Assembly (NCBI RefSeq): GCF_000964085.1
Contig: NZ_JZRB01000001.1
Coordinates: 62,001 to 126,000, forward strand
Source: Luteibacter yeojuensis
GTDB lineage: Bacteria; Pseudomonadota; Gammaproteobacteria; Xanthomonadales; Rhodanobacteraceae
Length of the DNA stretch: 64,000 nt
Direction: 5' to 3'
Position numbers and translations under genes: made by a program
Notes under the pieces: model-generated
Database searches by the model: none
Told to the model about the DNA's origin: nothing
The model's input: only the letters and a program-made list of their open reading frames with translations
Shown: positions 2,028 through 8,073 of the stretch, one piece after another
Numbering within the stretch: position 1 is the first letter of the stretch
Layout of the letters: each line of letters begins with the position of its first letter

Positions 2028-2330
2028 TCAATCCGCCTCGGGGTCGCGCGGCACCGGCTGATCTTCGCCCTCGCGCTCTCCTTCGCCTTCTTCGTCCTCG
2101 CGGAATGGCGCCTGGATATCGCGGTAGGGCGTCTGGTAGGTCTGGGCGGCCATCATCGAGCGGGCACCGAACTCCCCGGCGAGTGCTCGCGGATCGCCCG
2201 TCGTGGCGGCCTCGGCCAGGGCATCGGTGGCACCGGCCTCGCGCAATGCACTGGCCATGAGGTCGGGTGGCAAGCGCCGAAGCGACGCATCGCGGCCGAC
2301 GGCTTCGAGCAGGTCGATCGAATCAGACAT
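2028..2330 (-). CDS. Putative split-borosin precursor peptide (borosin-binding-like N-terminus)
   Basis: The gene encodes 100 residues. I chose the ATG at 2330 because it follows a GGGGGAA ribosome-binding stretch; an in-frame upstream codon at 2363 has no such support. Residues 4-55 resemble the small helical binding domain of split-borosin precursors such as Shewanella SonA as I recall it: a hydrophobic helix, G-R-D-A-S-L (12-17), then ALREAG, and TTGDPRAL (43-50), comparable to the SonA pattern VMTGDMEKL. After residue 56 comes MMAAQTYQTPYRDIQAPF, then an acidic tail in which 12 of the last 23 residues are Asp or Glu. The methyltransferase of the same system ends 85 bases upstream on the same strand, with a 6-bp hairpin (2352-2357/2367-2372) in the gap. 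The tail does not resemble the hydrophobic cores of known borosins, so core position and modification are inference. Otherwise it is a small acidic protein of unknown role. Confidence 0.68.
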   Translation of the reverse strand: MSDSIDLLEAVGRDASLRRLPPDLMASALREAGATDALAEAATTGDPRALAGEFGARSMMAAQTYQTPYRDIQAPFREDEEGEGEREGEDQPVPRDPEAD

Positions 2331-2415
2331 CTGAGTTTTTCCCCCTGGGCCCCGGGCGGGCATCCGGCCCGGTGGCAGCGGCGGGGATTATGTCACGGTC
2401 ACGATACGGTTGCGC

Positions 2416-3234
2416 TCAGGCATTGGCGGCTGCCGCGTCGAGCGCCCTTACCCGCTCCCACGCCTCGGTATCGGGTTCCATCGGCGTCGCCGGCGGGAGG
2501 ATCACGGTCTCCGTCATCGTCAACGCGGCATGCGGCAGGTCACGCAACCGCACCCGCGATACCTGGGGCTGCTGGATGGGAAGCGTCGCGCAGCGGTAGA
2601 TGATGATCTCGTGGTCAAGCGGGTAGTCCCGGGCCAGCCGGTCGACGAGCACTTGCCGGTAGGCAGGGCCGGTGGAGAACCGTGCCAGGGTGGTGTCGCC
2701 GACCAGGCCCACCTGCCATAACACCACGTATCCCACCGTATCGAGCTGGCGCCGGTAAAGCATCAGCTGGCTGGCTTCGAAGTGCTGGCACCCGACACGG
2801 CCGGGGTCGATGCCCAGGTCGGCGTAGAGGCAGTCTTCGGCCGACACCCCCGGCTCCATGTAGGCGTCGTAGCCCTCGGCCCGGGCGACCTCCACCACCT
2901 TGTGCGGCGACCAGGCGAAGACGCCGGGGTGCCCATAGAACACGGCGCATACGCGCTTGCCCGCGCGCACCTCGGCCATCATCACCTCCACCCATTCGCG
3001 GTAGGTGGTCATGCGCGACTTGCCTTCGGCGTAATAGCCCTGGAGGCTGCGTACATCGGAGTTCATGCGCTTCAGCCACTCCTCCACCAGGTGGTCTGAG
3101 AGGCCCGCGAACACCACGTCGGCCTGCTCGATGGCGCTACGCGAGATGGGGGTGAGGTGGGAGCCAAGCGTCATGCCCATGCCCACCACCGCGATGCTGC
3201 CGCGCGCGGCGGCCTGGCTGTCTGGTGTCGTCAT
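2416..3234 (-). CDS. Borosin-type peptide backbone alpha-N-methyltransferase (SonM-like, tetrapyrrole-methylase fold)
   Basis: This 272-residue SAM-dependent enzyme belongs to the tetrapyrrole methylase fold but lacks fused partners seen in cobalamin or siroheme enzymes. It shows VVGMGMTLG (16-24) at the N-terminus, YGHPGVFA (100-107), MEPGVSAEDCLYADLGIDPG, FEASQLM, and YPLDHEIIIY followed by LPIQQPQVSR. These blocks match the split-borosin methyltransferase SonM from Shewanella as I remember it. The Tyr-Arg-Tyr-Tyr set used in alpha-N-methylation appears conserved as Y68, R74, Y78 and Y100. Members methylate backbone amides of a separately encoded precursor; the candidate precursor follows 85 bases downstream. 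The ATG at 3234 is chosen; a TTG at 3252 would add six residues, and neither has a strong ribosome-binding site. The XRE regulator gene ends 25 bases upstream, so one transcript may cover all four genes. Confidence 0.88.
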   Translation of the reverse strand: MTTPDSQAAARGSIAVVGMGMTLGSHLTPISRSAIEQADVVFAGLSDHLVEEWLKRMNSDVRSLQGYYAEGKSRMTTYREWVEVMMAEVRAGKRVCAVFYGHPGVFAWSPHKVVEVARAEGYDAYMEPGVSAEDCLYADLGIDPGRVGCQHFEASQLMLYRRQLDTVGYVVLWQVGLVGDTTLARFSTGPAYRQVLVDRLARDYPLDHEIIIYRCATLPIQQPQVSRVRLRDLPHAALTMTETVILPPATPMEPDTEAWERVRALDAAAANA

Positions 3235-3259: not shown

Positions 3260-3478
3260 CTAGCCGTCCGTCACCGCGCTGAACAGATCCTCCACCGTGC
3301 AGCCCAGCTCGCGCGCCAGCACCAGCGCCAGCAGGGTCGAGGGCACGAACACCCCGTTCTCCACGGTGTTGATGGTCTTGCGCGACACCCCTGCCCGCTC
3401 GGCCAGTTCGGCCTGGGTGAGGCCCGCATCCGTGCGGCGTTCCTTCAGGCGGCTTTCGAGGCGGAGGCTACTGGTCAC
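3260..3478 (-). CDS. Small XRE-family transcriptional regulator
   Basis: This is a 72-residue protein made almost entirely of a Cro/C1 helix-turn-helix: LESRLKERRTDAGLTQAELAERAG then VSRKTINTVENG, with a short C-terminal helix ending DLFSAV. I start it at the GTG at 3478, which overlaps the stop of the upstream membrane-protein gene and implies translational coupling; a longer open frame upstream reads through that gene in another frame and is not credible. Single-domain regulators of this size often control their own operon together with a small membrane partner. Two 16-bp palindromes just ahead of the operon are the obvious candidate targets. The methyltransferase gene begins 25 bases downstream. 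Confidence 0.88.
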   Translation of the reverse strand: MTSSLRLESRLKERRTDAGLTQAELAERAGVSRKTINTVENGVFVPSTLLALVLARELGCTVEDLFSAVTDG

Positions 3479-3929
3479 GGGACGCCTTGCGCTCGAGGTA
3501 GGCGAAACGGCCCAGGGCGAGCCCGATGCCGACCGACACGACGGAATGCAGGGCGAGGAACACCGGCACCACGTCGAACAGCGCAACGGCGTAGTAAACG
3601 ATGGCCATGGCCATGGCGCCACCGAACCCCCAGCCCAGGGCCTCCCCGCGATGGGCGCGGCTCAGCTCGTCGTTCATCGCCTCACGCACCGCCCGCGGCG
3701 TGGCAAGGAACCCACCGCTCATGACCATGGCCAGCAGGATGGCGGCCCACGCCAGCCAGCTGATGCCGCCGACGCGGTCGACGGTGCGCAGCACCGGGCC
3801 GTCGAAATGGGTAGTGACCCACGTGGCCTGCCACAGGCAGAAGAGGACCGCCTGCGCGGTGAAGAAGCGGATCCGACGCCGCCCGAGGATTTCAGCGGTT
3901 TCATGGATGGAACGGGCTTGCTTGATCAT
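3468..3929 (-). CDS. Four-helix membrane protein, unknown function
   Basis: This 153-residue protein has four predicted membrane segments: about 20-38 (FFTAQAVLFCLWQATWV), 57-75 (WLAWAAILLAMVMSGGFLA), 98-115 (GFGGAMAMAIVYYAVAL) and 120-140. The N-terminus MIKQARSIHETAEILGRRR is charged and cytoplasmic. I do not recognise a named family. The gene overlaps the following XRE regulator by 11 bases, an arrangement common for small membrane proteins co-regulated with their own repressor. It is the first gene of the leftward group that continues into the borosin-type genes. The tandem palindromes 23-56 bases ahead of its start probably control it. No catalytic motif is evident. Confidence 0.8.
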   Translation of the reverse strand: MIKQARSIHETAEILGRRRIRFFTAQAVLFCLWQATWVTTHFDGPVLRTVDRVGGISWLAWAAILLAMVMSGGFLATPRAVREAMNDELSRAHRGEALGWGFGGAMAMAIVYYAVALFDVVPVFLALHSVVSVGIGLALGRFAYLERKASRDQ

Positions 3930-3951
3930 GCGCGGCTCCCTGGTGGGTTAA

Positions 3952-3985
3952 GTAACCTACGGGTTACATGTAACCTCAAGGTTAC
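3952..3985. promoter_or_regulatory. Tandem 16-bp palindromic operators
   Basis: Two perfect inverted repeats of the form GTAACC-N4-GGTTAC lie at 3952-3967 and 3970-3985, separated by two bases, so their centres are 18 bp apart. They sit 23-56 bases upstream of the membrane-protein start at 3929, where a repressor would cover the promoter. By position they most likely bind the small XRE regulator encoded in the same operon. Binding itself is inference; the repeats are plain in the sequence. Confidence 0.7.
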
Positions 3986-4096
3986 CACGGGTGTCAAGCA
4001 TTTTTTTCGCACGGAGGAATGCGGCTTGCGCCCAAGAAAGCTTCATGAAGATGTGCGATAGATGCCCGCCTGCCCTCGGGCCGAAGCGCCTTGCTG

Positions 4097-4133
4097 ATAG
4101 GCAAAGCCTCTCGTCATCATTAGATCAATCAAT
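4097..4133 (+). promoter_or_regulatory. OxyR-like binding site upstream of katG
   Basis: The sequence reads ATAG-N7-CTCT-N7-ATTA-N7-CAAT, matching 13 of the 16 fixed bases of the OxyR consensus ATAG-N7-CTAT-N7-ATAG-N7-CTAT with exact spacing. It ends 100 bases before the katG start, a normal distance for OxyR activation. A CATCAT/ATGATG inverted repeat overlaps its right edge. The rest of the 3986-4233 gap holds the katG promoter region and nothing else I can name. Confidence 0.5.
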
Positions 4134-4209
4134 TTCTGTGATGATGAGGCGACGCCTATGATCCGTCTATTGCGTTAGTCACGAGGCGCGGCCCTGTCCC
4201 CGCCTCTGA

Positions 4210-6480
<2,271 letters not shown>

Positions 6481-6503
6481 CGCCTGGCGTTGTTGATGGA
6501 AGA

Positions 6504-6535
6504 GGCCACCCGCTGCGAGGCGGGTGGCCCTTCTC
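6504..6535 (+). terminator. Rho-independent terminator of katG
   Basis: A perfect 10-bp stem GGCCACCCGC/GCGGGTGGCC (6504-6513 and 6520-6529) with a six-base loop follows the katG stop by 23 bases and is trailed by CTTCTCT. The short T tract is weak. It overlaps the end of the convergent amidase gene region and may stop transcription from both sides. Confidence 0.75.
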
Positions 6536-8073
6536 TATCTACGCGCAGCGGTGCGCCGTGCGCATTGGACCCTGTAAACCGCAGGTTTGGAAACCACGCC
6601 GTCGAAATCCTTCATCCTGACCGTGATTTCGACAGGCGGCTTGTCCAGATCCTCGCGCTTGCACAGGTAGCCAACCTTGTACTTGGCGAGACCGTCGAGG
6701 TTGTAGACGCTCTTCTGGAACGACTCGCACCCCTTCTCGCGCGTGCAGTTCGATTCCTTCGTCCAGATGCCGACGGGGAAGAGCGGGTTACCTCGGATCG
6801 TCACCGGGAACTTCACGTCGATGCCGGGGTTGCCGACGACATCGGGTTGCGCCTCGACGGCGAAATCCTCGCAAGGTTTGTTTTCACGGAAGAGGCGATA
6901 GCCCTTGGCGACGCCTCGCATGGCGAGTTGCTGGAAGTCGTGGTTCTTGAGGTGCTCTGCATCCGACGGATTGGTGTGGAACCCGACCTCGACGATCACG
7001 GATGGCATATCGGCCAGGCCGTTCTCGATGTTATCCGACGCCACCTCGGGCGCACGCTGAACACCGTAAGCCGCAAACTCCTGCTTCGTATGAATGAGCT
7101 CGCGCGCACTGCAGAGCACCGTGCCGGCGAGCCGCTTATCCGCGGCTCGCGGGTGGACGATCACGCGAAGACCCGAGGCCTTGCCGGTGGCTTCCGCATT
7201 GGTGTGGACCTGCAGGAGCGCATCCGCGTTGACGTAATTGGCATAAAGCGGCCTGCTTCGAAGGTCCTCCCGCCGTTCCCTGTCGCGACGCCTGTCGTCC
7301 GGCCTCGAGTTCCAGATCTCGGGCTTGTCAGGCATCTTGGCTTCGAGAAGGTAACGAGCACCCATTTTCCACCACGGGTTGCTACTCGGCTGGTGCATAA
7401 AGACCTGGGAGGTCTCACGCAGGTTGTGGACGCTCACACGATCACGCTCCAAATCCGACGTCAGATGTGCGGCGAGGACGGGAGTGAGCTCGTCTTCAAG
7501 AATGCCGTTGACCGTCTCGCGCTGAGCCCTCCAGTCTTTGTACGTCGAATGGAAATAGATGCCGTGCCCCGGGGACACCACGGCGACAGGCTGCGTCGCT
7601 TCGCGCCTCTTACGCAACGACGACCGCGGCGACTGATCGCCTTTTTGGTTCTCGGGCCAGTGCTCCCGGTCAAAACCCCCGTAGGTGTAGTGGATCCCAG
7701 TAATACCGTCGATTCGATCCAGATGGATGATGACGTGATAGCGGACCAGCTCGGCCAGATCTTGCATGTCGTCACTGAGTGCCTTGGGACCGAGACGTTC
7801 GTCGAGATCGACGACCACGAGGTTGGTGTCGCTATCGAGGCGAATTCTGGCCGTAACCGGAAGGGCATCGTCCTCCGAGAACGACCGACCGCCGAGAGCC
7901 GTAGCGACGGACGTTTCGATATCGTGCAAGAGAGACGTCCGCTCCTCGGCCGACATGTCGCTGATCATCTTGGGGGCGCCGTGCGACGCAAACGACGACG
8001 AATAGGCCGCGAGCAGGCCCGCGAACACCGTCACGCGAACCAGGCCACGACGGCATGCAGTTTTTTCGAGCAT
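6535..8073 (-). CDS. N-acetylmuramoyl-L-alanine amidase (Amidase_3) with Cys-containing C-terminal extension
   Basis: This 512-residue exported zinc amidase would cleave the amide bond between muramic acid and the stem peptide of peptidoglycan. A signal segment (about 10-30) ends near SSSFASHG. The amidase domain shows VVSPGHG (first His), LQVHTNA, and VIVEVGFHTNPSDAEHLKN with the catalytic Glu. About 115 residues before the catalytic domain and 120 after it are extra. The C-terminal part has five Cys (PCEDF, NCTREKGC, YLCK, VQCA), suggesting a disulfide-bonded accessory domain, possibly for wall binding. The ATG follows AAGGAGA. GC content looks lower than in katG, which fits acquisition or a less constrained gene. 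It stands alone, convergent with katG. Confidence 0.85.
   Translation of the reverse strand: MLEKTACRRGLVRVTVFAGLLAAYSSSFASHGAPKMISDMSAEERTSLLHDIETSVATALGGRSFSEDDALPVTARIRLDSDTNLVVVDLDERLGPKALSDDMQDLAELVRYHVIIHLDRIDGITGIHYTYGGFDREHWPENQKGDQSPRSSLRKRREATQPVAVVSPGHGIYFHSTYKDWRAQRETVNGILEDELTPVLAAHLTSDLERDRVSVHNLRETSQVFMHQPSSNPWWKMGARYLLEAKMPDKPEIWNSRPDDRRRDRERREDLRSRPLYANYVNADALLQVHTNAEATGKASGLRVIVHPRAADKRLAGTVLCSARELIHTKQEFAAYGVQRAPEVASDNIENGLADMPSVIVEVGFHTNPSDAEHLKNHDFQQLAMRGVAKGYRLFRENKPCEDFAVEAQPDVVGNPGIDVKFPVTIRGNPLFPVGIWTKESNCTREKGCESFQKSVYNLDGLAKYKVGYLCKREDLDKPPVEITVRMKDFDGVVSKPAVYRVQCARRTAARR

Follow-up and report, generated by a model that had tools for sequence, protein, structure and literature searches.

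The window, i.e., the whole stretch of 64,000 nucleotides of Luteibacter yeojuensis DNA analysed here, carries three consecutive genes on its minus strand. They encode a SonM-type borosin alpha-N-methyltransferase of 272 amino acids (2416–3234, ATG start at 3234) and a borosin precursor of 100 amino acids (2028–2330, ATG start at 2330), both read from their translations, and a sensor diguanylate cyclase of 590 amino acids (243–2015), assigned from its Pfam GGDEF match, an AF2 model and VIA-align. The precursor lies downstream of the methyltransferase at a distance of 85 nt (2331–2415), and the sensor gene begins 12 nt past the precursor stop. The first-pass annotation had correctly placed the first two reading frames, with their strand, lengths and spacing, but its interval of 2028–3234 was one gene too short, since 243–2015 is part of the unit. 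Of its overall reading, the split borosin pair and the polar core stood; the acidic tail is not the unusual feature it was taken for, and the TPR-GGDEF gene had been overlooked. In our reading, the genes for methyltransferase, precursor and TPR-sensor diguanylate cyclase would form one operon that encodes a split borosin system (type IV-like). We consider this reading, taken as a whole with the signalling role proposed below, evenly balanced between right and wrong; the three genes would be co-transcribed. Searches for RNA families and for sigma-70 promoter and terminator patterns at the locus gave nothing above threshold. Of the three genes, that of the sensor tells most about the locus.

The best PDB match of the methyltransferase was SonM (7ltc; phmmer E = 2.1e-69, residues 12–253), while the dbOphM, MroMA and OphA entries matched at E = 1.3e-48 to 5.6e-45 and the top non-borosin sequence reached only E = 1.4e-4; Pfam TP_methylase scored 74.7 bits. 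The sequence blocks quoted in the first-pass annotation (YGHPGVFA, MEPGVSAEDCLYADLGIDPG, FEASQLM and LPIQQPQV) are present in the translation, and each member of the Y68/R74/Y78/Y100 set that it had named aligned with its SonM counterpart (Y58, R67, Y71 and Y93), leaving the catalytic set intact. Passages of the SonM/SonA paper (PMC8429565) assign Y58, R67 and Y71 to catalysis and Y93 to the SAM site. Two SonM contact residues are changed in the window enzyme (E173 to D180 and Q178 to R185). A phylogenetic tree that omitted the distant rows L183 and L188 separated 51 borosin-type rows (95/99) from an outgroup on very long branches, made up of E. coli CysG and the RsmI-like protein of this genome; the grouping with non-borosin tetrapyrrole methylases, which had been named beforehand as evidence against a borosin enzyme, was not seen. 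Membership in the SonM-type borosin family is therefore, on sequence comparison, well supported, and SonM homology, catalytic residues, tree and the profile match to SonA described below bear out the proposed split pair. OphMA/dbOphMA and the type III borosins share this methyltransferase homology (dbOphM, E = 1.3e-48) and differ in that enzyme and core are fused there and separate here, according to excerpts of PMC11395268, which also describe type III cores in which acidic residues alternate with others.

Searched on its own sequence, the precursor matched nothing in the PDB, Pfam or NCBIfam. The profile A1, built from 90 precursors with that of the window among them, placed seven SonA sequences at the top of the PDB (E = 7e-4 to 3e-3, next match 0.24), and its alignment with SonA was ungapped over positions 1–64 (best E = 7.4e-4). 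The AF2 model predicted five helices (residues 2–13, 15–19, 22–31, 36–44 and 47–54) and an unstructured remainder, with a mean pLDDT of 70.9; the ten best Foldseek matches of this model were all SonM-SonA structures, at non-significant E-values of 0.91 or more. L8, G12, A15 and L50 were invariant across the 90 precursors. Thus, the suggestion that the first 55 residues follow a SonA-like binding pattern gains from both the profile, which finds SonA first in the PDB, and the five-helix model, and we describe residues 1–55 (2166–2330) as a borosin-binding-domain-like leader on the basis of the model and the invariant residues. The profile-SonA alignment predicts a core at residues 56–77 (ARSMMAAQTYQTPYRDIQAPFR; 2100–2165), in which Q63 and Y65, counted from the leader end, would occupy the places of the methylated L63 and I65 of SonA, sites that we take from portions of PMC8429565. 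The remaining residues, 78–100 (2031–2099), form the acidic tail EDEEGEGEREGEDQPVPRDPEAD, with 12 D/E in 23 residues, exactly as had been counted; among 17,638 stretches of 23 residues from 48 mechanically picked window ORFs of at least 150 aa, none reached 12 D/E. The precursor opens straight into its helical leader, with no export signal seen, and its neighbours include no recognised transporter or protease gene. Both enzyme and precursor count as new split-borosin members with a polar, acidic-tailed core, which would be N-methylated, cleaved and exported.

The third protein consists of a hydrophobic N-terminus, a TPR-type superhelix, a hydrophobic segment and a GGEEF domain (Pfam GGDEF, 4.7e-40) preceded by RPVD, which we take to be an I-site motif. 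GGEEF (residues 499–503) was invariant in 57 sensors, as were C186 and C216. The AF2 model had a mean pLDDT of 88.9 and placed helical repeats at residues 34–319. VIA-align superposed residues 30–353 on 8jal_A with Z = 25.8, an rmsd of 3.8 and 317 aligned residues; by its title, this chain belongs to a peptide-degron receptor structure of APPBP2. The TPR rows among which it stood are non-exhaustive, as VIA-align re-scored Foldseek's list, mostly GGDEF domains. Pfam TPR_14 matched the window sensor weakly (0.45) and 28 of the 57 sensors at 0.001. As modelled, the repeat part is a TPR superhelix, and the hydrophobic N-terminus, the hydrophobic segment before GGDEF and the invariant C186/C216 suggest that it may be extracytoplasmic, i.e., periplasmic.

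In the window's family, the Rhodanobacteraceae, 128/197 genomes had a methyltransferase relative (E = 1e-20) and 124/197 a precursor relative (E = 0.001). We gathered loci by methyltransferase similarity, not by their neighbours, and obtained 91 unique methyltransferases (the window enzyme among them), mostly from Rhodanobacteraceae with a few unclassified bins. For 86 of them, a pattern search located a precursor no more than 2.2 kb downstream; among the five others, L065 and L070 lie at contig ends, L062 and L082 each carry a precursor-like ORF not caught by the pattern, and L068 has none. At 87/91 loci, the window's included, a sensor homologue followed downstream, at most 6 kb away and on the strand of the methyltransferase, a count that contains some sensors cut by a contig end and a second L003 locus with a GGDEF fragment only. 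L065 and L070 end after 121 and 309 nt, leaving L068 and L072 as true misses, and L068 has a sensor homologue upstream. Across 72 triads, the median gap between precursor and sensor was 11 nt to the first possible start and 14 nt to the first ATG, and that between methyltransferase and precursor 142.5 nt.

Outside the family, relatives were found with SonM as query in 61/247 genomes of another gammaproteobacterial order, and the window enzyme had a match in 4/4 genomes of a further family. In a wider sample, matches occurred in 15/398 genomes of the phylum and 10/369 of the class, so that the system is patchy. We then analysed 30 regions, hand-chosen to span nine other gammaproteobacterial families. 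A sensor stood beside the methyltransferase on the same strand in 28 and on the opposite strand in L239; L253 was the sole locus of the 30 in which no TPR sensor was seen. Pfam classified the 29 sensors as 20 GGDEF proteins, eight histidine kinases and one truncated at a contig end, of which only the TPR part is present (L252), and recognised TPRs in 25 of them (not in L227, L232, L238 and L239) at E = 0.001 or 0.01, with many calls below Pfam's own cut-offs. A precursor-like ORF lay directly 5' of the sensor in 29/30 loci, at −60 to 130 nt in 28 and at 173 nt in L234; 23 of these 29 ORFs matched profile A1 in their locus at E = 0.01 or better and six (L235, L242, L243, L244, L250 and L252) were judged by eye. 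The position of the methyltransferase varied in these loci, as it came after the precursor-sensor unit in L229, L231, L236, L241, L245, L246, L248, L254 and L255, while the precursor was constantly 5' of the sensor. L226, whose enzyme is 93% identical to SonM, encodes SonM, SonA and a TPR-GGDEF protein, with 0 bases between the SonA stop and the sensor ORF as called. Moreover, three loci (L303–L305), one of them from another family of the window's order, had a precursor match followed by a GGDEF gene, and in L181 and L182, TPR-kinase and TPR-GGDEF genes had a precursor or a methyltransferase as neighbour. The conserved unit is thus precursor plus sensor, with a methyltransferase that is usually adjacent and may also act from elsewhere.

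Several loci had other features. In the distant loci L183–L188, no TPR sensor was detected by tblastn with the window sensor or by eye, a search that a farther kinase-type sensor could escape. Three of these have a small ORF just 5' of the methyltransferase (L185, 5730–5942; L186, 3504–3737; L187, 7146–7331), L185 and L186 with transporter-like genes just after it, and seem to represent another borosin architecture, one that lacks TPR sensors. L302, from another class of the phylum, encodes a fused borosin-type protein of 1174 aa (3340–6864, minus strand), in which a methyltransferase near the N-terminus is followed by a long repeat-like stretch and an acidic C-terminal part, and has no GGDEF gene beside it. 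An HD-GYP-type gene (DUF3391 + HD_5; 3999–5255, minus strand) lies near the methyltransferase of L253; HD-GYP-type proteins are c-di-GMP phosphodiesterases. The SonA-type precursor of L226 (6522–6734) weakly matched two NCBIfam models below their cut-offs (IniB_NTERM, 5.7e-7; Os1348 NHLP-clan, 2.7e-4), a possible distant tie between the borosin leader and other leader families.

The recurrence of the same precursor-sensor arrangement in relatives suggests that the peptide may be the sensor's signal, and we put the borosin product as a peptide signal for the TPR sensor at roughly equal chances of being true or false. In this proposal, the methyltransferase would bind the helical leader of the precursor and N-methylate backbone amides of the core just past it, at about residues 60–72, as SonM does on SonA. 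The modified core would be freed and would then reach the periplasm, where the TPR superhelix of the neighbouring membrane protein would sense it; this would change the cytoplasmic GGDEF output and hence the c-di-GMP level. Methylation would serve stability and passage, and co-variation of core and TPR would keep each peptide private to its own sensor.

We next considered how cores and tails vary among the relatives. The post-leader region had on average 41.6 residues, 10.1 of them acidic (73 loci, last precursor of each locus only). Core and tail are unlike known borosins, as the first-pass annotation had held, when set against SonA, but not within the family. The tail is found again in relatives and, beyond the family, in further gammaproteobacterial families, so that it is a family trait and can be ruled out as a single-gene oddity. 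Core classes comprised the polar PQ..Q type to which the window belongs, a histidine/asparagine-rich type and a hydrophobic type, e.g., CC[LM][LM]VP. The precursors of L061 (6978–7253) and L066 (5451–5750) have Asn/Gly/His/Asp-rich tails (NHVNNNVGGG-like, then D/H runs) that look capable of metal binding. Luteibacter-type loci can carry arrays of precursors ahead of one sensor, with 11 in tandem in L191 (G196, C1:1818000–1830000) and seven in L192, in which only the last precursor has the long acidic tail and the others end in short PQ..Q-type cores. The L192 genome, G178, is of the same genus as the window genome, and its array reads as that of Luteibacter sp. dw_328 (L028).

With up to 11 precursors per sensor, these arrays strain a one-to-one pairing. 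Many precursors with one sensor also resemble product diversification, and the founding borosin, omphalotin A, is described in excerpts of PMC11285071 as nematocidal. Both points would fit an ordinary borosin natural product acting outside the cell (e.g., as a metal binder or antagonist), whose production the cyclase would tie to the biofilm/motile switch without binding the peptide. We consider this rather unlikely, as it predicts neither precursor-sensor pairs that persist without an adjacent methyltransferase, nor an output that is a cyclase at some loci and a histidine kinase at others, nor a core that co-varies, as described below, with the TPR domain and with neither leader nor GGDEF.

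One such pair exists in the window genome itself. A single further precursor relative was found in this genome, on contig C59 (109 aa, acidic-tailed, E = 4e-10), directly before another TPR-GGDEF homologue. Its core is more hydrophobic than that of the window (RFIASQMP). A decayed methyltransferase beside it was sought and rejected, the best tblastn match being only E = 0.17. The two other full-length sensor homologues of the four in the genome (C60 and C87) had no recognisable precursor. Among 21 orthologues of the C59-type sensor in the genus (identity of 62% or more, window genome included), 17 had a precursor in front and four did not, and a methyltransferase was nearby in three, within a stretch that spans about 1.5 kb on each side. 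As the genome has a single methyltransferase of this kind, this enzyme probably serves both precursor-sensor pairs and would then also modify the C59 precursor.

The first-pass annotation had allowed that the target of the enzyme may be elsewhere, and the C59 precursor, with no methyltransferase beside it, is indeed a second possible target. Taken further, the window precursor could be a poor or former substrate whose polar core stays unmethylated, the real substrate being the C59 precursor or another protein; the polar window core (SMMAAQTYQTPYRD), set beside the hydrophobic core of SonA and the more hydrophobic one of C59, speaks for this. Against it stand the 86/91 unique methyltransferases with a precursor within 2.2 kb and the conserved leader residues. 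Together with the weak correlation between core and enzyme reported below, these findings make a discarded window substrate very unlikely in our judgement.

We compared distance matrices for 73 triads, taking as core the 18 residues from the leader end. Core distances correlated with TPR distances at 0.71 and with those of methyltransferase, leader and GGDEF at 0.59–0.60. In partial rank correlations, with the other parts held constant by rank and quadratic terms and 199 permutations (p floor 0.005), the core-TPR correlation was 0.31 (N = 73, p = 0.005), as opposed to 0.00 for core-GGDEF and 0.04 for both core-methyltransferase and core-leader, in a permutation test that leaves shared ancestry partly in the core-TPR values. 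The core-TPR correlation persisted in class A, i.e., the 73 triads minus 12 hydrophobic-core loci (0.30, N = 61, p = 0.005), in thinned class A (0.37, N = 40, p = 0.005) and in PQ cores (0.26, N = 34, p = 0.015), while core-GGDEF and core-leader values were near zero or negative in all three subsets. Since the leader shares its ORF with the core yet gives no signal, whereas the TPR domain, encoded by the next gene, does, linkage alone hardly explains the result. The partial core-methyltransferase correlation was 0.15 (p = 0.01) in class A, 0.14 (p = 0.06) when thinned and 0.24 (p = 0.01) in PQ cores; the class A value argues against a core that the enzyme no longer modifies. The idea that the acidic tail docks electrostatically on the TPR domain was rejected, as the net charges of tail and TPR were uncorrelated (rho = −0.12, p = 0.33, N = 73; rho = −0.15, p = 0.51, N = 21).

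The tight coupling of precursor and sensor genes also fits regulation of the sensor by the small protein itself rather than by a released peptide, with methylation tuning the contact. There is a precedent in Vibrio vulnificus, where, according to passages of PMC12282931, the TPR domain of RcbB represses its diguanylate cyclase and RcbA, the product of a neighbouring gene, de-represses it. The window system resembles this pair in having a TPR domain fused to a diguanylate cyclase, with regulation by a neighbouring gene's product; it differs in that RcbA is itself a TPR protein, and those passages of PMC12282931 mention no borosin genes. A protein partner of this kind sits poorly with a TPR domain that looks extracytoplasmic and a precursor that has no export signal, and with co-variation that involves the core and not the leader, and we regard it as improbable. 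The peptide-signal proposal remains the one that we favour. Several observations nevertheless count against it, i.e., the precursor arrays, the sensor homologues that lack a recognisable precursor (C60, C87 and four of the 21 C59-type orthologues), the loci with no sensor downstream, the two altered SonM contact residues, the uncorrelated charges of tail and TPR, the weak core-methyltransferase correlation, and a precursor with no recognised transporter or protease gene next to it.

Some methyltransferase neighbours could bear on maturation. Genes for pepsin-like aspartyl proteases lie upstream of the methyltransferase in L233 (4091–5374, Pfam Asp), L243 (3943–5289) and L249 (3758–5194), the latter two called by eye, and are candidates for core release at these loci. 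Shewasin A, a protease of Shewanella, reportedly acts on a borosin precursor. When the L233 protease was used as a protein query, its source genome (G605) gave a match and six other genomes, the window's included, gave none; a pepsin-like (shewasin-like) protease was therefore discarded as the maturation enzyme of the window system. A GNAT-type acetyltransferase gene adjoins the methyltransferase in L227, L230, L232, L233, L234, L239, L243, L249 and L251, as well as in L064 and L075 (called by Pfam Acetyltransf_3 in L232 and otherwise by eye), a possible second modification.

The closest described system is SonM/SonA of Shewanella oneidensis (PDB 7LTC series), which, going by portions of PMC8429565, shares with the window a homologous enzyme with the same catalytic set, a separate precursor with a helical leader and adjacent genes; the SonM-like locus L226 likewise has a TPR-GGDEF gene next to SonA. 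The window precursor differs in its length (100 aa versus 71 for SonA), its polar core (SYLVIS in SonA) and its long acidic tail. The word GGDEF appears 0 times in the main text of that paper (PMC8429565). In the open-licence PMC literature, no paper joined 'borosin' with 'diguanylate cyclase' or 'tetratricopeptide', and broader searches there listed no borosin paper. The novelty of the neighbourhood is provisional, as surveys of bacterial borosins (Imani 2022, Lee 2024, Cho 2022) may already report TPR/GGDEF neighbours.

In the RRNPPA systems of Gram-positive bacteria, a small peptide gene lies beside the gene of a TPR receptor, which is cytoplasmic and HTH- or phosphatase-like, and the peptide is exported unmodified. 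The window locus shares the small peptide gene adjoining a TPR receptor gene. It differs in its membrane sensor, of the cyclase or kinase kind, and its RiPP-type precursor; the GGDEF output domain and the helical leader with which the precursor starts both set it outside the RRNPPA definition.

To our knowledge, bacterial split borosins have enzymes and structures but no established product function. A precursor fixed before the sensor across ten or more families, together with the co-variation of core and receptor, leads to a direct question, i.e., whether the peptide binds and switches the sensor. More broadly, and with somewhat less than even confidence, we suggest that gammaproteobacterial split borosins, SonA included, are a signalling class, in which a backbone-methylated ribosomal peptide would bind a periplasmic TPR receptor of its own, whose output is a c-di-GMP cyclase or a histidine kinase. 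The polar, acidic-tailed core class is in any case on offer for the engineering of N-methylated peptides. If true, the proposal would give backbone N-methylation a role in signalling and would add to Gram-negative biology a peptide-to-c-di-GMP circuit, i.e., a peptide-signalling system built on a RiPP.
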